Below the pieces are notes generated by a model that did no database searches, had not been told where the DNA came from, and worked only from the letters and a program-made list of their open reading frames with translations. A stretch of DNA of 27,111 nucleotides from a bacterium (GTDB lineage: Bacteria > JAMOTN01). The stretch spans positions 1-27,111 of the forward strand of contig JAMOTN010000054.1 in NCBI GenBank assembly GCA_027062325.1, written 5' to 3'. Of this stretch, positions 12,110-27,111 are shown in pieces. Within the stretch, counting starts at the first letter, position 1. Every line of letters begins with the position of its first letter. A program made the translations under genes and the position numbers.

Positions 12110-13054
12110 TTATTTTGCAGCCTTCAAAAGCTTCTGATACTCTTCGTACGCTTTTCTGTACTCTTTCAAAGCCTTCTTAACTTCAGGAGCGTTCACATCC
12201 TTTGCCTTTGCCATAGCGTCAACATATCTCTTGTAGGCTGCAATGTACCTGTCATGAGCTGCCTTCAAAGCCGTGGACTTAGTTCCAGCTACAGCTTTAC
12301 CCTTGGATGGCTGTCTTGCCCCCTTGTCTGGATTTGCAGCAACTTTTCCCTTACCTTTTTTCATGACCGGCTTTGCAGTTTCTTTCTGCTTGTTAGTCTT
12401 CACAGTAACAGAAGTGTTTGGCTTAACAGTTACATTTACTTCCTTAGATGCATTCTCTGGTTTAGTAGTTGTAGTCGTTGGCCTATTATTAGTGCTACTC
12501 GTCGGTTTAACTGTAACATTACTGCTACCAGTAGAAGTTGAACTACTAGGAGTAACAACCATTCCACCCGTTGCCTTCTTCTTTATAAACTTCTTATACA
12601 CAATGTAAGCAATTACACCAACAGCAACAACTGCCAAAATCGGAAGAAGTGGGCTGGAAGCCAATCCTGCAATTGCTCCACCAAGTGCTCCAAGCCCAGA
12701 GGCCACTGCACCACCAACTGCAGCCCCTGCAGAAGTTATAGCACTACCTGCTGCTGCTGCACCAGCAGTTATTGCTCCACCAAGTGCCGTACCTGCACCA
12801 GCAATTGCTCCACCTGCTGCAGCAACTCCAGCACTCAAGGCAGCTCCCGCTGCACTTGCTGCACCTGCTGCCACAGCTCCAGCAGCTCCAACCAAACCAA
12901 TTGCAGCCTTTACAAGAATTGGACCAACTATCGTCAACCCAACACCAGTAATAACTCCCCACAAAAACGTCTTTTTAGAAGCATAAACAGTACTACCAAA
13001 TCCAAACGTCGTAAGGAAAGCTACAATTAAGAAAACACTCAATATTTTCCTCAT
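12110..13054 (-). CDS. Exported Ala/Gly-rich (glycine-zipper) envelope protein with basic helical C-terminus
   Basis: 314 aa, family not recognised. ATG 13054 is chosen over the longer open frame because AGGAGG lies 8 nt upstream and the protein then begins with a signal peptide (MRKILSVFLIVAFLTTFGFG, likely cleavage after 'VYA' at residue 25). Residues 34-135 are almost entirely small or hydrophobic, with dense Gly-x-x-x-Gly/Ala spacing as in glycine-zipper membrane segments. A hydrophobic helix (136-153) ends in 'KKFIKKK'. A Ser/Thr/Asn/Pro linker (160-225) leads to a Lys/Pro/Ala-rich stretch (226-262) and an amphipathic Tyr/Lys/Ala helix (263-314, 'HDRYIAAYKRYVDAMAKAK'). It is monocistronic, with its own leader and terminator and a strong ribosome binding site, suggesting abundant expression. 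Topology and role (pore, anchor or structural layer) are open. Confidence 0.82.
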   Translation of the reverse strand: MRKILSVFLIVAFLTTFGFGSTVYASKKTFLWGVITGVGLTIVGPILVKAAIGLVGAAGAVAAGAASAAGAALSAGVAAAGGAIAGAGTALGGAITAGAAAAGSAITSAGAAVGGAVASGLGALGGAIAGLASSPLLPILAVVAVGVIAYIVYKKFIKKKATGGMVVTPSSSTSTGSSNVTVKPTSSTNNRPTTTTTKPENASKEVNVTVKPNTSVTVKTNKQKETAKPVMKKGKGKVAANPDKGARQPSKGKAVAGTKSTALKAAHDRYIAAYKRYVDAMAKAKDVNAPEVKKALKEYRKAYEEYQKLLKAAK

Positions 13055-13062
13055 AATTACCA

Positions 13063-13139
13063 CCTCCTGGAATTTTTTAAATTTCAACTTTAACACCACC
13101 TCCCAACACTTGTAATACACATGGAGGCTTCTACCTCCA
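13063..13139 (-). promoter_or_regulatory. Structured leader with hairpin and duplicated Shine-Dalgarno of the Ala/Gly-rich gene
   Basis: Minus strand. A perfect 6-bp hairpin TGGAGG-TAGAAG-CCTCCA occupies 13139-13122. Downstream are two copies of GGAGGTGGT, at 13103-13095 and 13067-13059. The second is the ribosome binding site for ATG 13054; the first precedes an in-frame TTG at 13087. The CCTCC arm of the hairpin can pair with its own partner or with either GGAGG downstream, so mutually exclusive folds are possible. The pairing is visible in the sequence; regulation is inference. Confidence 0.4.
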
Positions 13140-13164
13140 CTCATAATTTTAATGAATAGACCTA

Positions 13165-15883: not shown

Positions 15884-17371
15884 TCAATTCTCTATCTCTC
15901 CTTCAAGAATTTGATTATAACTATTATCTCCAGCAATATTACTATCATCATTATCTTCATTTTCTATAACTAAAGCTTTCACCTCTGCTACATCTCCATC
16001 GTGTAACTTCAAGTAAGAATCCTTAAATATAGATTTAAGCAATTTTACGAAACTCTTATCCTCCCCCATTTCTTCAAGGCTGCGAACAAAAGAAGTGTCA
16101 AACTCTTCTAACTCCTTATTCAAATCATCAGGTAATTCTATTCCAAATCTTTTCATTATGTTAAGTATTACCTCTTTAACATTCACACCACTAACTTCAC
16201 CACTTCCTTCAATGTCACCTATCTGATACGTATAGCTTCCATCAAGGTGAATTTCCAAACTTGCTCCCTTGATCATCTCCTTTATAAAATTTTCCATCTT
16301 AGGATTGAATTTCCCCACAACAAGAGTGGAAATATTTTCATCAGAAGTAATACCTTCTTCCCTACTAATAACAATACGTCCATCATAAATCCCTAACCCT
16401 ACAGATTCCTCTGACATTTCAGAAGACTTAAGTACTATTTTCAAACTTCCGGCATCACCATAGGAGCTCTCAACTCCTAAACCATAAATTTTACCATCTA
16501 CTCCTACTCCAACCAGTCCATTGTTCAATACGCATATATCAGGCTTTTCTTCTTTAAAACTCTCATATTCAACCTCTGTACTTGTCAATCCATTCTCGTT
16601 TAAATTTGTAAAAGCAATACCTTCCTGCAAACTCCAATCGAAATCTCCAGAAAACACTATCCCCTGTGTTTTTGCCGCCTGGTACTTGTATCTTTTCAAA
16701 TCCAATCCAACACCTGCAGCCAACAGATTGTTATAATTCATCTCCAACTTAACATCATCTTCCTCAGTACTTACACACTTTGCCATAGCATCAAAGCTTC
16801 TTATTATCTCATTCTCACTAGAAACTTCAAATCCCAACTCCTTTGCAAAAGCTAAAAGCGCCTCCCTGAGTCCATCTTCATCCAAAGTGCTCGAATCTAA
16901 ATCAACCTCTACATTAAATTTAGCTGCTAATTCCTCAACCTTCTTACTCGCATCTCGAGGGGACAAGCCCTTCTTCCACAACGAAGCTGCCAAAGAAGCA
17001 AATGGAGTCACATTCAACAAACGATCCTTTAAGGTATCATCCAACACATCCACTGCTTCCATCTTCATGCTGTCCTTATAAGCATCAACTTTAATGGTAA
17101 ATCCTCTATACTCAACAGGTATCTTTACCAAATAACTCCCTTTCTCATCTGTAGTTGTCTCAAAAGTAGCCACAACCTTATTTCCGTTCAAAACACTTAG
17201 CACAACTCTAGTATCTTTCCATAAATCGTCTGCCACATAACCATTAACAAAAAAGTACTTATCTAAAACTTCTGTGGTAACTCCCAGCTCCTCTGTCGTA
17301 TCTAAACATCCACTTATAAAAAATGTAGATAATAAAATAAATACAAAAAATAATAATTTTTCTCCCCTCAA
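15884..17371 (-). CDS. Secreted lipoprotein of unknown function
   Basis: About 495 aa. The lipobox 'FISGC' places the lipidated Cys at residue 22, after n-region 'MRGEK' and a Leu/Phe-rich core. I choose TTG 17371 because AGGAGG lies 9 nt upstream. An ATG at 17416 is in frame but lacks a ribosome binding site, and the frame's extension to 17503 runs into the giant gene's terminator. After the Cys, residues ~40-100 look like a carboxypeptidase-regulatory/CnaB-type beta-sandwich ('GSYLVKIPVEYRGFTIKVDAY'). Then comes 'NVTPFASLAASL', a segment seen in many exported lipoproteins, followed by mixed helical and beta sequence with several repeated-looking Gly/Val strands and an acidic Asn-rich tail. 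A TATAAT at 17471-17466 is a possible -10. Its gene leads into polA, an odd pairing with no obvious functional link. Confidence 0.82.
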   Translation of the reverse strand: MRGEKLLFFVFILLSTFFISGCLDTTEELGVTTEVLDKYFFVNGYVADDLWKDTRVVLSVLNGNKVVATFETTTDEKGSYLVKIPVEYRGFTIKVDAYKDSMKMEAVDVLDDTLKDRLLNVTPFASLAASLWKKGLSPRDASKKVEELAAKFNVEVDLDSSTLDEDGLREALLAFAKELGFEVSSENEIIRSFDAMAKCVSTEEDDVKLEMNYNNLLAAGVGLDLKRYKYQAAKTQGIVFSGDFDWSLQEGIAFTNLNENGLTSTEVEYESFKEEKPDICVLNNGLVGVGVDGKIYGLGVESSYGDAGSLKIVLKSSEMSEESVGLGIYDGRIVISREEGITSDENISTLVVGKFNPKMENFIKEMIKGASLEIHLDGSYTYQIGDIEGSGEVSGVNVKEVILNIMKRFGIELPDDLNKELEEFDTSFVRSLEEMGEDKSFVKLLKSIFKDSYLKLHDGDVAEVKALVIENEDNDDSNIAGDNSYNQILEGEIEN

Positions 17372-17499
17372 CCTCCTCAACCTCCTATTCCAATAGTCTA
17401 AATATTCCACCTTCATAAACGTATATCGGCATGAAAAGCAAAAGCGTATATATCTAAAAACTGCAATTATAAACCCACAATTAAAATATTTTAGATACA

Positions 17500-17528
17500 A
17501 CACAAAAGGGGCGACCTAAAGCCGCCCC
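17500..17528 (-). terminator. Rho-independent terminator of the giant surface-protein gene
   Basis: Read on the minus strand: GGGGCGGC (17528-17521), loop TTTAG, GTCGCCCC (17515-17508), then TTTTGTGTTGT. The 8-bp stem contains a single G-U pair. It lies about 50 bp after the stop at 17578 and insulates the lipoprotein-polA operon from the giant gene. Confidence 0.85.
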
Positions 17529-17577
17529 CTAAAATTAATCAAATAGGTCCAGATAAATCACTCAACCAATATTTTCA

Positions 17578-20500
17578 CTATTTAATTCTCTCAAAATTCA
17601 CCATATCAAAGTACACAGCACCCTTCAACGCAGGATCCCTGTACTTACCAAGATAGAGATACACCCTCTTTACCTTCTTGAGATCAACACCAACTATCTT
17701 AAAGTCCTTTGTAAACTTTTGCCAAGTTGGATTGGAGTAGGGAATTCCAGTTGCTCCAAGTTTGATAATATCCATCATTACATCTCCTTTCGTCACATCA
17801 ATCTTTCCATCTCCATCCACATCAAATGCCAATCCAACTCTTATGCGCACCTTTCCATCGGTCTTTATGTAAACCGTCAACCTGTAAATTTTATCTTCTC
17901 CAACATCTAACATGTCCTTATCAATTATGTGATAAGCACATGGGAAGTCAAACGTTCCAAAGTCTCCTATCTCAACATACGTACGTCCTACTTTGACATT
18001 TCCCAACCTATCCTTCAACGCCACCTCTAACCATGCAGCATCTCCAACTTCGGCACTTCCAACCTGAACCTCTACTCTCTTAGCATCAGTGTATTCTCCT
18101 TCATCATAACTCACCAAGTTTGTACCCGGAATATCAAGTATCCACTTTTCATTACTTGCATAGTCAACAAGCACTTTATTGTTGTAATAGTCATATCCAA
18201 TTGCTATGAAGTCGCTCTTACTCCTCATAGGTATAACGTACGGCTTATCCGACGTAGCCTTAGGTTCAACAACAACTTCATAAAGCGGCCCAGGCACAGT
18301 CTTCATAAGCATCTTTGCATAATATGAATTTGTTGCATCTTTCAACACCTCAGCCGAGGAAGCCTCGTGATAAAGCTTAATCTTCACAAATGGAGCCTCT
18401 GCCAACCAATCGAAGAAGTCAAACTCTGCAGTTCCTGCATTCAAGGTCAACTCCAACTCTGTCTTTCTCTCATCACTATCTATCTGGTAAATGCCAGCAG
18501 TCTCTTTGTCTGGGTTCATAGTAACCTTAACACGCGTTGTATAATCTGAGTACCTTACATTACCGTACTCATCAACACTTCCTATAACCAACCTTATCTT
18601 AGAAGGAGCTCCAGCCTTTTCATCGTACTCTGCAGTTGCAGGATAGAGCAACACAACTCCCTCACTTGGATCATTCCACGTCACGTCATATATTTTCCAA
18701 TTTTTCTCACTAGTAGAGTCTTTATACAAGAACACCAACCTTGACACCTTATCAGATGGTTTAATAATCACCCTCTCCGTAGCAAATATGTATTTTGATA
18801 CCGAGTAAGGATTATAAGAGATCATATTGCGTAGTTGCGACTCACTCGTTACCTCATTGCTGTAAACAGCTATTACCGTTCCAATAACAGCAGACGTCGT
18901 AGCAGCAAGTGCGTTACCAGCCGTCTTATTATGCATTACAAATTCTCCAAGCCCTGGTACCCTGCCAAATTCATCAAATCTTGTGGAAGCATAGCTTGTC
19001 CACACGGAATCAACCGGCACCTCATTACCCCAACTGTCGGTTCCAATCACTTCAAAGTCTTGAGTCTCACCAACAACAACTTCAGGACTATCCGGTTTTA
19101 TATCTATATATTGAATCTTACCCGCCACAACTTTTATTATAGGAGTCCTGTCTTCTGTGGAGTTACCAAGTGACGAATTGGCAAACACATAGAACCTATC
19201 TCCAACTCTGCGCGTAGTGATGAATTCAACACTACAACTTCCATTCTTTATCTCAGTTGTCACAGCTCCACCATAAGCAGGCGGTACTAAACTCTTCACA
19301 AAGTACGGTGCCACTGGTGGATACAACAATGTATATGGAGTCTGAGGTCCTCTCAACAACTCAGAAGTTTTAGCTTCAATAGAAGCATAGGTCCACAACG
19401 CACTATATCTACTACTTTTGACCACATTTCCACCCTTATCATAAGCAATTGCTCTTATATTAACCTTTGCATCATCAGCACTGACTATTATTTCCTTACT
19501 AACATCAAGTTGCTCTCCATACCATGTATTCTCAGGAGTTCTAACTTCAACTATCTCAAACCTTGCAGGCTTTCCTTCGTAAACTTCAACAAGTCCTGCA
19601 ACCTTATTAACAAAGTTTCCTTTGGAGTCAACAACTATCATTCTAATTCCATAGAGTTTTTCCGGATATGGATAACGCGTCTTGTAATAAGCAAACTCTG
19701 CAGGATCAGACTTGTAGGTTGCTTCATAACTTGCATCATCCAATACTATGCGGAGATCCGGTAATACCTTGACAGGTTCTTTGGCATCTATATACACATT
19801 AAGACTAGTTGATGTATCTTCAGAAGGCTTAGGATCAAATACGGCGAATCCCGGCAAGGTAACTGTAGTGCCGTCAACTAGTGTAATATCCTGTGCCTCT
19901 TTTGAAATAAGTAGCGTATCATCAATGCTCATACCAAGATCTTTTGTTTCCAATCCATCTGGAACATATATTATTCCAGCATCTTTCAACTGCTTTAACA
20001 CCATCGGATCAATCTGTTTATAGTTTAAGCGAGAAACTGGGGGCACTGTAATTTCAGGAGCAGTTCTATCCTCTGCAATTGCAACCCTTGAGTAACCCCA
20101 TTGGCCAACATTTCCCATCTTATCCACAGCGCACGCCCTAACAGCATACTTAACAGCATCAGGAATATTGAACGCTGCTACACATGTTGGAGCATAAGCT
20201 GGAATTATCGTCTCAAATCCAAGACTATCTAACCATATCTGAGCTGGTGAATTATCAAAGCTTTCAACTTCTATCCTAACCTTTCTTATTGCTTCACCTA
20301 CTGGTACTCCAAGCTCAGTAAGAGATACTATGTAAAGATTCCACTTCTGGGTAGGCTGGTAAACGGTTCCAACAATAACATCTCCCTCTTTAGTGGCAAA
20401 TACATCCTGAGTCCACAAAGCTGAATACTGACCTTGATCTCCGTAGAGTATAACCCTTATCAACTTTGGAAGTTTAGAGGAAGACTCAACGTGTACCCAA

Positions 20501-23500
20501 AATGCCAAAGCTTCAAAGTCTCCATTCTCAACTCGATAAGGCTTATCAGCCGTGTAATCTAGGTATGCTGTCTGTGATGGATTTAGATCAAATTTAACTG
20601 CACTCTTTCCAGCATACACCCACTCATAGTCTATAGGCTTGACTCCTTCTGTAAATGTAACCTGTTCTGGCTTTTCTACATCCAAGAACCACCAACTGTC
20701 TCCATTCGCAGCAGTTGCTACAACCACGTAATCCACATTTATGTGTCCTGTTCCAGTGTAATCAACTTTAAATCCTTTCAACTCAACATCTCCAGTCGCA
20801 TTAGATACAAGCTGAGAGTAAGAAAGTACTATCGGTATCCACTTATCAGCTTTTTGTATAGGTGCCACATCCCTCTCAGTATCAGTGGCTATAGGCACAA
20901 AGGAACTTCTCCATGTGTAACGTCTATTTTTGAACATATACTTCAACTCTTTGGCACTTCCATCAACGCTAACATCAAGTGTAACCTTTAATTTGCTAGC
21001 CACACTCCCAAGGGCACTCGTATCAAACCTCACCCACATTACCAAAGCATCCGAAGTCTTCATTTTGTAAGGTGTATCAAATGAATATGCAAATCCTTCA
21101 CCAGCCTCAATTCTGGCGGACCTCTTTCCACTCAAAGCAACAGCTGTATCTACCATCCCAGGAGCTACGTCTTCCCAATTTTCATCAACAACCACTATCC
21201 TTGGTATCAAAGCTAAGCTCTCCTCACCTGCGTTTAAGTTAAGCTTAGTCTCAACACGCACCAAATCATACATAAGATCTACTTCTGGAAAGTCAACCGT
21301 TTGAATCGTGATAGAACGTATATATTTACCTTTTAACTTCTCAAGATCAATGGAAACTGGCTGCCACTTACCATAAGGCGGCAATCCACCTATATATTCT
21401 GCTCCAGTTCCGATCACAACTGCATTTGCTAGGTAATAGCTGTACTTGTCTGTAATCTCCCCACCCGGAGCTGAAGCCGTATTTACAGTTATCTTTATAT
21501 AGCTGTGACTCGTGTATTTACCTATGAATCTGAACCAAATTACCATCTCAAGATCTTGTGAATAAGGCACATAGTAATCCTGGTCCAACTGATGAGTCAA
21601 ATAGCCATTTCCAACCTGCTTGACAAATTTATTACCGCTTGCCGCCATATCTGGATCATCAACCACTCCATTTGTCCAATTTTCATCAAATAACAGGTCA
21701 GAAGTAAAGTTGCTTATAACACCCTGGGTAAACTTGGAAAGCGGTATCCATTTACCCTCGTTTATAGCAAGCTGCACTTGAGCTAGGTAGAAATCTATAC
21801 CCGTACCCTCTCTCAACGAAATCGTATCAACATTCATGTGGGTATCAACATCACTTTTAGCTACCACCTTAATAGAAATTCCCCTTATCTCCATACCATT
21901 CACACCTATCTCATCCGCTTTTACAACCAGTGGTGCCCATCCAGAAAGGCTTGTATCCGGAATTGCACCCAGCGCCTGAGCTGTTGGATCAACTGCAGAA
22001 TCACCGAACAAAACTTTCTTTATAACTCCACCGCTACCATCTAGCAGCGAAATCACAACAGCCCTTGGTTTGTAGTAAATAATCTTTTCGATTGTAGCTT
22101 CTTTGGTAGTAACAGAGTGAACAAAAGTCCATATAACAAGTTCACTCGAAGGAGCAAGATAAAGTGGTATAAGTGCATTTTCTAATCTAAACTCAGCGCT
22201 TTCTCCCTTAGCTGGAGTGAAGTATAGACTTTCTTTTCCACCAACCGAAGTTCTCAAATCCCACTGAACGTTTCCAATGTAATACACATTTTCCTTGAAC
22301 GTTGGTAAACTATCACTCTCATCTATCCAAGCACTTCTTCCAATGTCTGGAATTTTGTCCCAAACAGCTCCAAGCATACCTGCGTCCCCAGCATTTGTAT
22401 GAGGATTCGTGGTCTCTATTACAACATTGCACGGAATAGGAGGCGTTGTATCCACAACAACCGTATCAGAACGCGCCAAGAATATATCATCTATATACAT
22501 ATCAGCTGCCGAATCATTCGGTACGACTATTCTCACAAAATCGCACTCTGGCACATCAACCACAACTCTCACAAATCTCCATACCCCATTTCCAGCCGAG
22601 GTAACCACTGTCTCAAATGAAGCAGTATAAGACCCCTTCAAACTAATCGGCCAGTAAGTGTAGGCTCCCGTATCCACAGCATCTGCCATATCATAGTACT
22701 CAAATCTTAAGTTATGATTTGCCTCAGCATCTCCTCTTACCCACATTCCGAATATAAATTCACCAGTCCCCGGAGTAACTTCAACGTAAGCTTCAGCAGA
22801 AGGTTTAATAACCAAACTTCTTGCTACATAGTGGTAAATATCGGTGCTCAAAGCATCACTTTTGCTCTCTCCAACAATTTTCCAGTTATCCAAATCGTTA
22901 TCAAATGTCCATATGCAGAAGTAATTCCTGCTCAAATTACCATCTGGATCTTGAACCTCATCGTACGGTACCGCACATATCTCTAAAACTCCATCTCTCT
23001 TTGTACTGTATTTCGCCATGAAACCTTCCTCTGGATCCTGAGCAAAGTCAGAATATGCATTCTGGAGATTTTCGAAGACCTTTATTCCAGCAAGGTGGTT
23101 AGCTTCTTTATAATCACTCCATTCATCCACTTCAAATGGCACAGCAGCAAGAGCACTCTTATCAATCAAAATCTCAAACTTACCCATCAACGGAGTATTA
23201 AGTCTGAATGCCGGAATTTCCGCAGTTGCCCCGTTAAGTAAAATATCCTCAACATAAAATCCAACAGTGTAATATCCCATATCTGTGAACTTATCCAAAT
23301 TTACATCCAAGTAATACACATTATATCTTGCAGGATCTATATCTCCCTGGGCCGCCTTCCACGGAGCAAGTTTTTCTACGAACCAAGCAGAAGTTAAAGA
23401 GGCAGTTTCTGCAGTAGCCTCAAAAACTATCCTACCCTCTCTATTTCTAAAGTAGAACTTATGAATAGGAAGATATTGATTCTTGTTATCAAACAACGGA

Positions 23501-26500
23501 TCTCTAACTACAACCATAACACGTACCCAATCACCAACTAACACATTTGGATCCGAAGTGAATCCACTAGCATCTGCAAGCTTTCTATCAACTTTAGATA
23601 TATCCCATACTTGGAAGCTATCTTTATATATGATAGGTGCATCCCCTTTAAATGCCACATACTTAACAGTTCTCTTAATTTTCAAAGTTTGATACTCATG
23701 TTGATCATACTCCCAAGCCTTCCAAGAATACACATTGCTCACTAGCTTTTGATCCCAATCAACAACCTCTAACTTTTTGAAAGTATTGGCAGCAAAATTA
23801 AGAACTACTTTGGCTCCATTCTGAGTGTACCAATCACTCGTCGTTAATGTCACATCATACTCATTACCAGCATTCTCAGCTCCCTCAGGTGGAAGCATTA
23901 AACATGCCTGTATCTTCACTTTATCCTCATTATTCATGTGATACATTGATACATTGTTTCCAGGATAGTCTATATCTTTTGAAACTTTATGTAATAATGG
24001 AAGTAATTTAGCGTATCTCTTCCAACTCACAACATTAACTGTCAATTCTTTTTCTCCCAATGACTCAACTTTTACCTTATAAGGAACGTACAACAAATTA
24101 CTCAAATCTTTGATAGGCTCTTTTGGCCAGTTTGTAACATGGAAAGCTACAGGAGTACTGTGCACCTTTACATCACCATTAACTTCTAATCTCAAAGCAA
24201 TTGTCTCATCTCCACCAAAAGCCCTGTATTCATCGTGTCTATTATCAAACGGAATAAACAAAGGATTCGAATAAAGATCCGGCACAAAGTCCTTAGCAAA
24301 GTCATAACCATTACTTATTAATATTTCTCCAGTATCTTCATCTACTCCATCATTTTTGTACATCTTAAATTCGTACACCAAATGAGCTGCAGCAAACCTT
24401 CTAAGCTTCTCCAGATGTTCTGTAGTAAAGTTACTAAACGCCGAATCGTTATACAAAAGCACTGGTGGCTGTGCTATAGCATCTCCCTTCCCATCCAATT
24501 TCAAACCGATCTGACCACTTCCAAATACCACAACTGTCAATCTTATCCAACCAGTTGAGCTTGTTAAGTCGTTAACTTTATAGTAAACTGTATCACTAAC
24601 TGTTGGATCATTGCGGAAGATTATGGCTTCCTCGCTTGGTTCAAATCCTCCATTTACTAATATCACAGCAACTATTGAATCAGCAGGTTTTAACGTTATA
24701 GCCAGATTCTGATTTTGTCTTATCCACTTTTCATATACAACCAAACTATTACTAATTTTCTGAGAAAGTTCCCCACTATTTCCAAGGTTCACAATTTTTC
24801 CATCCGCAGTGTATAAGCCCAGCTTTCTCAACACTTCAAGAATCGAGGCTTTGGTTCCTTGAAGGGCTTTATTCCACAAAGTGCTACTAATTCTACTTCT
24901 ATCAACTGGAACTTTCCTCCACAATCCATCTCTAGGATTCCCCATATTTAGTTTATCTTTACCTACCATGTAGTTAGTAACATCTTCATCAAAGTAAGCC
25001 CATCCTTTGAAAGCTATCTTATTTCTAAAGGACCTGGGCTCAACATAAGCAACTAATACGTTATCTAAAAATCTATCACTGAACACCATTTCAGTAGTAG
25101 ATCCATTCTTCAAATAATACATTGTACGGATACCATCCTCTACTCCCCCTTGTTCTCCCACATAATAAGGCAAAGCAAGTGTTTTAAATACACCTACAAT
25201 AGTATCCTTAGAATCAACCTTTTCCCCATTAAGCATCAAAGCAACCTCAATACTCACCCTATCAGGCAATATGTACGTTGGAACAACAGGTATCTTAATA
25301 ACTTCTTCAGAGCAGTAAATTGGCCTGAACAACTCAATATGCCATTCTACATCTTCAGCATGTGCAACACTCCAGTTCTCGCCTGCTCCCACAACAAACC
25401 ACTTATCAACTAAAGTGTCATTTTTAGGATCATAGAAGTCAACTTCCAAAGTAGCAGTTCCATAACTACTCAACTTACCAAATGGACCATATAAATTGAT
25501 AAACGTAACCTCACCAGGATACCATCTTTTATTTGCTACAACACCAACTATAGGGCTAGACACATAAATAACATCCTCATATGTATAAGTAGCTTTATTT
25601 CCTGCAGGATCCTTCACCGTAATTGCAACATCATACCAACCTTCTTTGGCATCAAGCGGTATTTCCCACGTTCCTACCCAGAAAGTTTTTTCGTAATCTG
25701 CCTCAGAATCATTCCAAGCATCAATTTCAGCTGAACCCTCTATTGGTATAACACTCTTGTCTGCAAAGTTTTGAGCATCCACAGTGTACTTCTTACCCTC
25801 TGGGGATATAAATGTAATCTCAACCTTTTTGAAGAACTTATCAGTCTTAAAAACAGGATCATCAACATCAACGGGAATATACAACGCATCAATTCCACGA
25901 ATGACAGTCTTATCATCATCTTCTGTCACATCCTCCATTCCATTGTATCTCTCTGCCCATATTTCAAACGTTGCTACTGTAGGAGGGGTAGCATCGTATA
26001 TCACACGAATAATATTACTTTTCTTGACATTTTTGTAGTAAAGGTCTGCTATTTCCTGCGCGGACAAAGCACGATTGTAGACAAACATGTCATCAACACG
26101 ACCATTAAGAGGTTCAGCTGCCCACCTATAATTTCTTCCTAACTTGAAAGTTGAGATCATACGTATTTTTTTACCCGGAACATACTTTTTACCTACCTCT
26201 CTGCCATTAACATAGAACCTAAACCATTGGCCATCATATACTCCCACTAGGAACCTCCACTGGTTAATGTTATTCAAATCCTCGATATCAATACGGGTAC
26301 TGCTCCCATCTTCAAAATAGGCGTAAAACCTCATAAACTTACTGTTGTTGTAAAAGTAAGCTTGCATTCCCATCTCCCACGTGTTTGTTTTTACTTCCCA
26401 TATTTGCTGGATATTCTCATTGGTTAAACCATTAAATTTATACCAACATCCTATTGTGAATTGAGAAACAGGTTGATTTCTCAAAGGATTTGGTAATTCA

Positions 26501-27111
26501 ACATAAGTGTTAACATCTCCTTTGAATTCTACACTTCTTCCGAGTTGAGGAGTTGCCCCCTCTTCAAAACTCACCTGGCTTCCAACGCACTGTCCGTCGC
26601 ATCCGTTTCCGCTAATATCGTTGTAGGTGTTATCATCAAACGACCAGTATGCAAGTAATCCTTCATCTATCCTATATTTAGGAAATGCGATATCATCACT
26701 CAAAGCACCGTGCTCATCAAGAGCTCTCACATCAAGGTAGTATATATTATCAAGGTATCCTTCGTTATAAACAGCCTGTTTTAGCAACTCAAACCTAACC
26801 TGACTCCAAGCATTTGCAAGGCCATCACCGAATGGTCCTTCCTCTCCATAAGAAACCGTGATCGGCGACTGAGCTGTCGGCCATGCATAAAGTTTTACCC
26901 TTCTCACCGTTCCGTAAAGCTGCTGATACCCTTCAATTGGACAGTATCCTATATAGTTGTCAAGGTAATCCGTACTGATTCCATGTTCACTTCTTATATT
27001 TCTCACAACACTAGTCGGTCCTTTCACTTTTACTCCATCAAGAAGGGCCCAACCCATAGAATGCCCGTTTCCTGCATCTCCGCGCCTTATATCATAGAGT
27101 ATCGAGTGCCA
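17578..27111 (-). CDS. Giant modular surface protein (LamG, jelly-roll and Ig-like domains); N-terminus outside window
   Basis: The frame stays open from the stop at 17578 to the right edge. An ATG at 27057 is internal or uncertain, since 18 more in-frame codons precede it without a stop. At least 3177 aa. Modules in protein order by base position: Fn3/Ig-like start (to ~26680); LamG/concanavalin-like domain ~26670-26030 ('AYWSFDDNTYNDISGNG' to 'RALSAQEIADLYY'); Ig-like ~26025-25560 ('DPAGNKATYTYEDV'); a large unassigned region ~25560-22930; five jelly-roll-like modules ~22925-20205; then Ig-like domains with recurring D-x-x-G-N turns to ~17975; and a C-terminal jelly-roll-like module with an EF-hand-type loop 'DVDGDGKID'. 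No sortase motif, S-layer homology domain or C-terminal membrane helix is seen, so attachment must use another route or the missing N-terminus. Probably an S-layer, sheath or adhesin component; carbohydrate or Ca2+ binding is likely. Confidence 0.9.
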   Translation of the reverse strand, partial: WHSILYDIRRGDAGNGHSMGWALLDGVKVKGPTSVVRNIRSEHGISTDYLDNYIGYCPIEGYQQLYGTVRRVKLYAWPTAQSPITVSYGEEGPFGDGLANAWSQVRFELLKQAVYNEGYLDNIYYLDVRALDEHGALSDDIAFPKYRIDEGLLAYWSFDDNTYNDISGNGCDGQCVGSQVSFEEGATPQLGRSVEFKGDVNTYVELPNPLRNQPVSQFTIGCWYKFNGLTNENIQQIWEVKTNTWEMGMQAYFYNNSKFMRFYAYFEDGSSTRIDIEDLNNINQWRFLVGVYDGQWFRFYVNGREVGKKYVPGKKIRMISTFKLGRNYRWAAEPLNGRVDDMFVYNRALSAQEIADLYYKNVKKSNIIRVIYDATPPTVATFEIWAERYNGMEDVTEDDDKTVIRGIDALYIPVDVDDPVFKTDKFFKKVEITFISPEGKKYTVDAQNFADKSVIPIEGSAEIDAWNDSEADYEKTFWVGTWEIPLDAKEGWYDVAITVKDPAGNKATYTYEDVIYVSSPIVGVVANKRWYPGEVTFINLYGPFGKLSSYGTATLEVDFYDPKNDTLVDKWFVVGAGENWSVAHAEDVEWHIELFRPIYCSEEVIKIPVVPTYILPDRVSIEVALMLNGEKVDSKDTIVGVFKTLALPYYVGEQGGVEDGIRTMYYLKNGSTTEMVFSDRFLDNVLVAYVEPRSFRNKIAFKGWAYFDEDVTNYMVGKDKLNMGNPRDGLWRKVPVDRSRISSTLWNKALQGTKASILEVLRKLGLYTADGKIVNLGNSGELSQKISNSLVVYEKWIRQNQNLAITLKPADSIVAVILVNGGFEPSEEAIIFRNDPTVSDTVYYKVNDLTSSTGWIRLTVVVFGSGQIGLKLDGKGDAIAQPPVLLYNDSAFSNFTTEHLEKLRRFAAAHLVYEFKMYKNDGVDEDTGEILISNGYDFAKDFVPDLYSNPLFIPFDNRHDEYRAFGGDETIALRLEVNGDVKVHSTPVAFHVTNWPKEPIKDLSNLLYVPYKVKVESLGEKELTVNVVSWKRYAKLLPLLHKVSKDIDYPGNNVSMYHMNNEDKVKIQACLMLPPEGAENAGNEYDVTLTTSDWYTQNGAKVVLNFAANTFKKLEVVDWDQKLVSNVYSWKAWEYDQHEYQTLKIKRTVKYVAFKGDAPIIYKDSFQVWDISKVDRKLADASGFTSDPNVLVGDWVRVMVVVRDPLFDNKNQYLPIHKFYFRNREGRIVFEATAETASLTSAWFVEKLAPWKAAQGDIDPARYNVYYLDVNLDKFTDMGYYTVGFYVEDILLNGATAEIPAFRLNTPLMGKFEILIDKSALAAVPFEVDEWSDYKEANHLAGIKVFENLQNAYSDFAQDPEEGFMAKYSTKRDGVLEICAVPYDEVQDPDGNLSRNYFCIWTFDNDLDNWKIVGESKSDALSTDIYHYVARSLVIKPSAEAYVEVTPGTGEFIFGMWVRGDAEANHNLRFEYYDMADAVDTGAYTYWPISLKGSYTASFETVVTSAGNGVWRFVRVVVDVPECDFVRIVVPNDSAADMYIDDIFLARSDTVVVDTTPPIPCNVVIETTNPHTNAGDAGMLGAVWDKIPDIGRSAWIDESDSLPTFKENVYYIGNVQWDLRTSVGGKESLYFTPAKGESAEFRLENALIPLYLAPSSELVIWTFVHSVTTKEATIEKIIYYKPRAVVISLLDGSGGVIKKVLFGDSAVDPTAQALGAIPDTSLSGWAPLVVKADEIGVNGMEIRGISIKVVAKSDVDTHMNVDTISLREGTGIDFYLAQVQLAINEGKWIPLSKFTQGVISNFTSDLLFDENWTNGVVDDPDMAASGNKFVKQVGNGYLTHQLDQDYYVPYSQDLEMVIWFRFIGKYTSHSYIKITVNTASAPGGEITDKYSYYLANAVVIGTGAEYIGGLPPYGKWQPVSIDLEKLKGKYIRSITIQTVDFPEVDLMYDLVRVETKLNLNAGEESLALIPRIVVVDENWEDVAPGMVDTAVALSGKRSARIEAGEGFAYSFDTPYKMKTSDALVMWVRFDTSALGSVASKLKVTLDVSVDGSAKELKYMFKNRRYTWRSSFVPIATDTERDVAPIQKADKWIPIVLSYSQLVSNATGDVELKGFKVDYTGTGHINVDYVVVATAANGDSWWFLDVEKPEQVTFTEGVKPIDYEWVYAGKSAVKFDLNPSQTAYLDYTADKPYRVENGDFEALAFWVHVESSSKLPKLIRVILYGDQGQYSALWTQDVFATKEGDVIVGTVYQPTQKWNLYIVSLTELGVPVGEAIRKVRIEVESFDNSPAQIWLDSLGFETIIPAYAPTCVAAFNIPDAVKYAVRACAVDKMGNVGQWGYSRVAIAEDRTAPEITVPPVSRLNYKQIDPMVLKQLKDAGIIYVPDGLETKDLGMSIDDTLLISKEAQDITLVDGTTVTLPGFAVFDPKPSEDTSTSLNVYIDAKEPVKVLPDLRIVLDDASYEATYKSDPAEFAYYKTRYPYPEKLYGIRMIVVDSKGNFVNKVAGLVEVYEGKPARFEIVEVRTPENTWYGEQLDVSKEIIVSADDAKVNIRAIAYDKGGNVVKSSRYSALWTYASIEAKTSELLRGPQTPYTLLYPPVAPYFVKSLVPPAYGGAVTTEIKNGSCSVEFITTRRVGDRFYVFANSSLGNSTEDRTPIIKVVAGKIQYIDIKPDSPEVVVGETQDFEVIGTDSWGNEVPVDSVWTSYASTRFDEFGRVPGLGEFVMHNKTAGNALAATTSAVIGTVIAVYSNEVTSESQLRNMISYNPYSVSKYIFATERVIIKPSDKVSRLVFLYKDSTSEKNWKIYDVTWNDPSEGVVLLYPATAEYDEKAGAPSKIRLVIGSVDEYGNVRYSDYTTRVKVTMNPDKETAGIYQIDSDERKTELELTLNAGTAEFDFFDWLAEAPFVKIKLYHEASSAEVLKDATNSYYAKMLMKTVPGPLYEVVVEPKATSDKPYVIPMRSKSDFIAIGYDYYNNKVLVDYASNEKWILDIPGTNLVSYDEGEYTDAKRVEVQVGSAEVGDAAWLEVALKDRLGNVKVGRTYVEIGDFGTFDFPCAYHIIDKDMLDVGEDKIYRLTVYIKTDGKVRIRVGLAFDVDGDGKIDVTKGDVMMDIIKLGATGIPYSNPTWQKFTKDFKIVGVDLKKVKRVYLYLGKYRDPALKGAVYFDMVNFERIK
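20205..22925 (-). repeat. Five divergent jelly-roll-like protein modules within the giant gene
   Basis: Protein-level repeats of ~150-165 residues at about 22925-22470, 22290-21810, 21700-21240, 21205-20705 and 20705-20205. Each has a strand of the type 'FIFGMWVRG', 'LVIWTFVHS', 'MVIWFRF', 'LVMWVRFD' or 'LAFWVHVE'. Most then have a 'KWxPxxxxxxxL' segment ('KWQPVSIDLEKL', 'KWIPIVLSYSQL', 'KWNLYIVSLTEL') and end in a 'YIDDIFL', 'NVDTISL', 'NVDYVVV' or 'WLDSLGF' strand. This resembles carbohydrate-binding galactose-binding-like folds. There is no obvious DNA-level identity, so the duplications are old. Confidence 0.6.

Follow-up and report, generated by a model that had tools for sequence, protein, structure and literature searches.

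The extracellular proteins Giant1–5 of Apilactobacillus kunkeei, a Gram-positive host with a genome of 1.5 Mb, exceed 3000 residues and probably bind glycans or surfaces; their genes form one cluster, and the proteins combine N-terminal beta-solenoids with long stretches of repeats (PMC12863079). Giant ORFs of Omnitrophota, including that of Velamenicoccus archaeovorus, whose 39,678 residues contain 42 predicted membrane helices, were proposed to act in adhesion or in the attack on surface polysaccharides (PMC10066038). The large adhesin of Marinomonas primoryensis, a protein of 1.5 MDa, contains a PA14 lectin domain (PMC8092209).

The giant protein described here is encoded at the end of contig C54 (27,111 bases), the whole of which constituted the analysed window, in an assembly of 1.65 Mb (81 contigs, 84% complete). 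It is unusual by its size and not by its kind, and, on balance, it is probably a secreted, extended glycan-binding adhesin. As in A. kunkeei, several giants are encoded in a small genome (1.65 Mb here vs. 1.5 Mb), but their genes lie on different contigs of a probably diderm cell, and the protein described here has LamG and jelly-roll modules. The very large size is shared with the Omnitrophota proteins, whereas no membrane helix of the kind predicted for V. archaeovorus was present in the part seen here. M. primoryensis is a diderm whose extended adhesin carries a sugar-binding module, as is predicted for the present protein. The adhesin of that species belongs to the RTX proteins, has Ig repeats that are nearly identical and is secreted by a type I system; no such features were noticed here in the general analysis of the sequence. 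With bacterial proteins combining LamG (PF13385) and jelly rolls of the CBM11, CBM16, CBM30 or SGBP-B type, the giant protein shares a clear LamG domain and the common jelly-roll fold, but its jelly-roll module has neither a Pfam family nor a profile relative in 386 genomes.

The giant open reading frame

The ORF analysis of the window revealed a minus-strand frame running from 27111 to 17578, stop-free across 3177 codons. The chance of such a frame staying open at the composition of the window is about 10^-77, and its codon positions 1, 2 and 3 differed as they do in real genes, with a strong codon-position bias. No start is present in the gene: the window comprises all of contig C54 and the frame continues beyond the contig end, so that the gene was cut by the assembly. 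The first in-frame ATG, at position 27057, begins MGWALLDGVKVK, which is not signal-peptide-like, and upstream of this codon the frame stays open as far as the contig reaches. The encoded protein exceeds 357 kDa and is beta-rich and acidic (pI 4.8). A terminator stem at 17530–17506 stands 3' of the gene. The features of the gene and its product were as follows:

17578..27111, minus strand: giant ORF, 3177 codons, 5' end off the contig, without a visible start codon or signal peptide
26047..26511, minus strand: LamG/concanavalin A-like domain (Laminin_G_3), residues 201–355, Pfam E = 2.7e-23
25567..26019, minus strand: Ig-like module, residues 365–515, weak Big_13/DUF4625 match below cut-off
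22912..25566, minus strand: middle region, residues 516–1400, without a Pfam, PDB or genome match, beta-alternating pattern
22456..22911, minus strand: possible further jelly-roll module, residues 1401–1552, sequence pattern judged by eye
21790..22302, minus strand: jelly-roll (CBM-like) module 1, sequence comparison
21229..21696, minus strand: jelly-roll module 2, modelled (pLDDT 76, pTM 0.77), nearest folds including CBM8, CBM11, CBM16, CBM30 and SGBP-B
20701..21186, minus strand: jelly-roll module 3, sequence comparison
20197..20634, minus strand: jelly-roll module 4, sequence comparison
17977..20196, minus strand: beta-rich region, residues 2306–3045, probably Ig-like modules, propensity and hydrophobic moment
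17581..17976, minus strand: C-terminal region, residues 3046–3177, jelly-roll-like by eye, EF-hand-like DVDGDGKID loop
17506..17530, minus strand: intrinsic terminator of the giant gene, 11-pair stem and T-rich tail

The initial annotation had described a single giant frame of at least 3177 residues with its own terminator, and both parts of this description were borne out: the frame is open over all 3177 codons and at its 5' end and has the codon bias of a gene, and the 11-pair stem is followed by a T-rich tail.

The recovery of the missing 5' end, proposed with that annotation, was attempted by reading both ends of the other 80 contigs (C8, C9, C12, C13, C24 and C30 read as N). The ends read as sequence amounted to about 60% of the assembly and the remainder was covered by genome searches. 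No exact overlap of 15–127 bases with the window end was detected at the other contig ends. Two 3'-truncated ORFs with signal-like N-termini, at the right end of C62 (at least 2242 residues) and the left end of C23 (at least 717 residues), were chosen as candidate 5' fragments on the basis of their large size, extracellular-looking character and signal-like start. Neither could be linked to the giant gene: against both, the first 100 residues of the giant protein scored no better than shuffles. The codon composition was not decisive, although C62 was closer in GC3 and skew. The 5' part was thus not found at the ends of the 80 contigs.

LamG, Ig-like and jelly-roll modules

The LamG domain matched Laminin_G_3 (PF13385) with 83.2 bits relative to a curated cut-off of 27.6, over positions 4–151 of the 151-position profile, and reached E = 6.1e-25 in the genome search. 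The genome profile search showed residues 201–355 to be the sole Laminin_G_3 in the genome. A somewhat longer stretch, residues 152–358, matched PDB 5hon, a chain named extracellular arabinanase, with E = 7.9e-7. The LamG module of the earlier description was therefore confirmed, whereas the Ig-like modules named beside it received a Big_13 match at residues 480–510 that was sub-threshold in Pfam (E = 0.033).

Residues 1605–2304 encompassed four tandem copies of one jelly-roll module, which were 22–24% identical to the reference copy, as four mutually related modules. AlphaFold modelling of module 2, with the four copies used as the alignment, predicted a jelly roll (beta-sandwich) for the repeated module with pLDDT 76 and pTM 0.77. 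The Foldseek comparison of the model pointed to SGBP-B (E = 3e-4) and CBM16 (E = 8e-4). In structural alignments the model was matched with CBM8 (Z 10.7, rmsd 2.8, 127 residues aligned), agarases (Z 10.5, rmsd 3.2, 132 aligned), CBM11 (Z 9.1, rmsd 3.7, 124 aligned) and CBM30 (Z 8.9, rmsd 3.4, 132 aligned). The best solved folds were rich in carbohydrate-binding modules and glycan-binding proteins; the same list of neighbours also contained meprin MAM domains as well as phage fibre proteins and others. Because the jelly roll is common to proteins not known as lectins, the fold alone is not a proof of sugar binding.

By sequence, no Pfam match placed the module in a CBM family, and a profile comparison with the PDB gave no significant hit (best E = 0.64); 2wz8, at E = 0.088 in a PDB profile search, was not significant either. 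Among 386 genomes, matches to the jelly-roll profile were confined to the giant gene. As judged from the model, these modules resemble carbohydrate-binding modules, and the jelly-roll-like modules of the initial annotation are thereby supported by both the prediction and its fold neighbours. The hhalign comparison of residues 1401–1552 with the jelly-roll family was negative.

The modules described above could also belong to a secreted polysaccharide-degrading enzyme, in which the LamG domain and the jelly rolls would be accessory CBMs and the catalytic domain would reside in the missing 5' part or in the middle. The resemblance of the LamG stretch to a chain named arabinanase and the many glycoside hydrolase modules among the structural neighbours of the jelly roll agree with such a function. 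However, no catalytic family exceeded the cut-off in the 3177 residues in Pfam, loose E-values included, or NCBIfam. To our knowledge, enzymes rarely carry more than 2500 residues of accessory modules, which also argues against this explanation, and an enzymatic role is considered rather unlikely.

The middle region

The region between the Ig-like and jelly-roll modules, of which about 880 residues had been reported to match nothing recognisable, indeed gave no significant match. Residues 516–1400 had no significant match in Pfam or in the PDB, where the best E was 0.35, nor to any protein in the other genomes of the 386-genome set. The hydrophobic alternation across most of the region, evaluated by propensity and hydrophobic moment, was that of the LamG and jelly-roll modules, and two stretches, at about residues 736–800 and 886–925, were possibly helical by the same measures. 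The AlphaFold prediction from the single sequence of residues 642–1000 was unusable (pLDDT 36). In the self-comparison, residues 1180–1330 weakly resembled the Ig-like residues 360–520, with E = 0.057 for 21 sequences.

The simplest reading of these patterns is that the middle may be a series of further beta-sandwich modules, more divergent in sequence, that contains a helical insertion. The presence of at least one unseen fold, perhaps with the helical insertion, which would form the functional core as a new binding or catalytic module, is regarded as very improbable. The comparison genomes are related at the domain level only, so a surface protein that evolves fast in an isolated lineage would be expected to lack relatives among them, and this lack alone does not indicate a new fold in the middle.

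C-terminal part and export

Within the beta-rich region, stretches within about residues 2635–2784 matched large ORFs in two other genomes. Profile comparison did not confirm the C-terminal region (residues 3046–3177) as a member of the jelly-roll family, and no sorting or anchor signal was found in it. The 3177 residues contained no membrane helix (best 19-residue mean hydrophobicity 1.53), and no SLH domain was detected among them, the N-terminal part being off the contig. The type IX sorting domain Por_Secre_tail was not found in the giant protein either. The earlier statement that the protein has no standard anchor thus holds for the part present, in which there is no transmembrane segment, SLH or sorting domain. 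The protein is probably exported, as known proteins usually carry modules of these kinds outside the cell, and any attachment would be by the missing N-terminal part, which would leave the C-terminus free.

The large size and the beta-rich, acidic composition (pI 4.8) would suit a protein that forms the bulk of a surface layer, a sheath or a coat. The modules, however, are heterogeneous and do not form a uniform lattice unit; moreover, SLH is absent from the part present while the genome encodes three separate SLH proteins. This role is judged improbable and less likely than that of a glycan-binding adhesin.

Other giant proteins and the cell envelope

At least five ORFs of more than 2000 residues, exported-looking or modular, were identified in the genome, on C54 (at least 3177 residues), C35 (3272), C73 (at least 3057), C62 (at least 2242) and C74 (at least 2052). 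Together they amount to about 13,800 residues, or ~2.5% of the assembly; since all but one of the five are truncated at a contig end, the number of genes may be smaller. The C35 giant (C35:28621–38436, plus strand, 3272 residues) is complete and has a hydrophobic, signal-like N-terminus. Its C-terminal domain, which spans about 95 residues and ends in FVAR, is shared with the C73 giant (C73:7976–17146, minus strand, at least 3057 residues) at 31% identity. The C35 copy of this domain passed the Por_Secre_tail cut-off (28.6 vs. 27 bits). Weaker copies of the FVAR-ending domain were observed at C81:41122–41331, C7:3776–4042 and perhaps C70:2269–2502, and the domain is possibly a common export or sorting signal of the lineage.

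The shared domain, with its one copy over the Por_Secre_tail cut-off, raises the option of a type IX-like export of the C54 protein together with the other giants, as a gliding adhesin of a type such as SprB. The domain is nevertheless absent from the C54 protein, which gave no match to it, and SprA remained below its cut-off in the genome search (25.6 of 200 bits), so that a type IX system is not established. Export of this type is regarded as highly doubtful.

The ORF at the right end of C62 (L226 1273–7998, at least 2242 residues) has a signal-like N-terminus and appeared beta-helix-like by eye. Its end lies just past copy two of a 300-nt repeat (95% identity, copies spaced by 831 bases), which may have broken the assembly at this point. 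The ORF at the left end of C74 (L177 1–6156, at least 2052 residues, 5' end off the contig) contains ten carboxypeptidase-regulatory-like domains.

Three SLH matches were located in three other ORFs of the genome, one of which, read in part, showed by eye an SLH followed by a porin-like region. Fragments at contig ends were LptD-like and secretin-like by eye. These fragments and the SLH proteins, one with a porin-like region, suggest that the cell is diderm. The PolA scan gave distant actinobacterial matches only, and the comparison genomes listed share only the domain with the source; the host is an isolated lineage without a near relative among the genomes searched.

Proposed role of the giant protein

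In the glycan-binding adhesin favoured here, LamG, Ig-like and tandem CBM-like jelly-roll modules would be arranged as 'beads-on-a-string' and together hold the glycans of surfaces, particles or neighbouring cells. The evidence counted for it comprised the LamG domain, the CBM-like jelly rolls, the lack of a catalytic family, at least four other giants, the signs of a diderm cell, the O-antigen ligase and the signal-like N-termini of two giants, the complete one on C35 and the 5' fragment on C62. Glycan binding by the LamG and jelly-roll modules is predicted from the domain match and the modelled fold; no relatives that could show conserved ligand residues were found in the genomes searched, and a comparison with viral contigs revealed no relative. 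Of the functions initially suggested, that of a giant adhesin or a protein binding glycans agrees with the LamG and CBM-like modules, whereas that of a surface layer or sheath found no positive support, given the heterogeneous modules, the lack of SLH in the part present and the existence of separate SLH proteins.

In this small genome of an isolated lineage (1.65 Mb, 84% complete), at least ~2.5% of the DNA is thus taken up by five giant ORFs, most of them modular, and this investment suggests that the cells live in attachment to surfaces, particles or other cells. Neither the jelly-roll module nor the middle region has a relative in the collections searched, and both might turn out to represent new families of glycan-binding modules.

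Neighbouring genes and other observations in the window

The next same-strand gene past the terminator (15884–17503, minus strand) encodes a putative lipoprotein of 539 residues with a lipobox-like N-terminus (LLSTFFISGC), for which no Pfam match was obtained. An O-antigen ligase family protein is also encoded in the window. The product of 12110–13144 (minus strand) and that of L242 3185–5611 (plus strand) are Ala/Gly-rich proteins, alike by eye, in each of which a hydrophobic segment at the N-terminus is accompanied by membrane stretches that are glycine-zipper-like and by a region rich in Lys and Gly (KGKGK). The GC skew of the plus strand ranged from -0.10 to -0.48 per 1500-base block, and the G-rich minus strand codes for most of the large genes. 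Bases 1–25 of the window recur, reverse-complemented, within the left end of C55 at about base 128 (L158).
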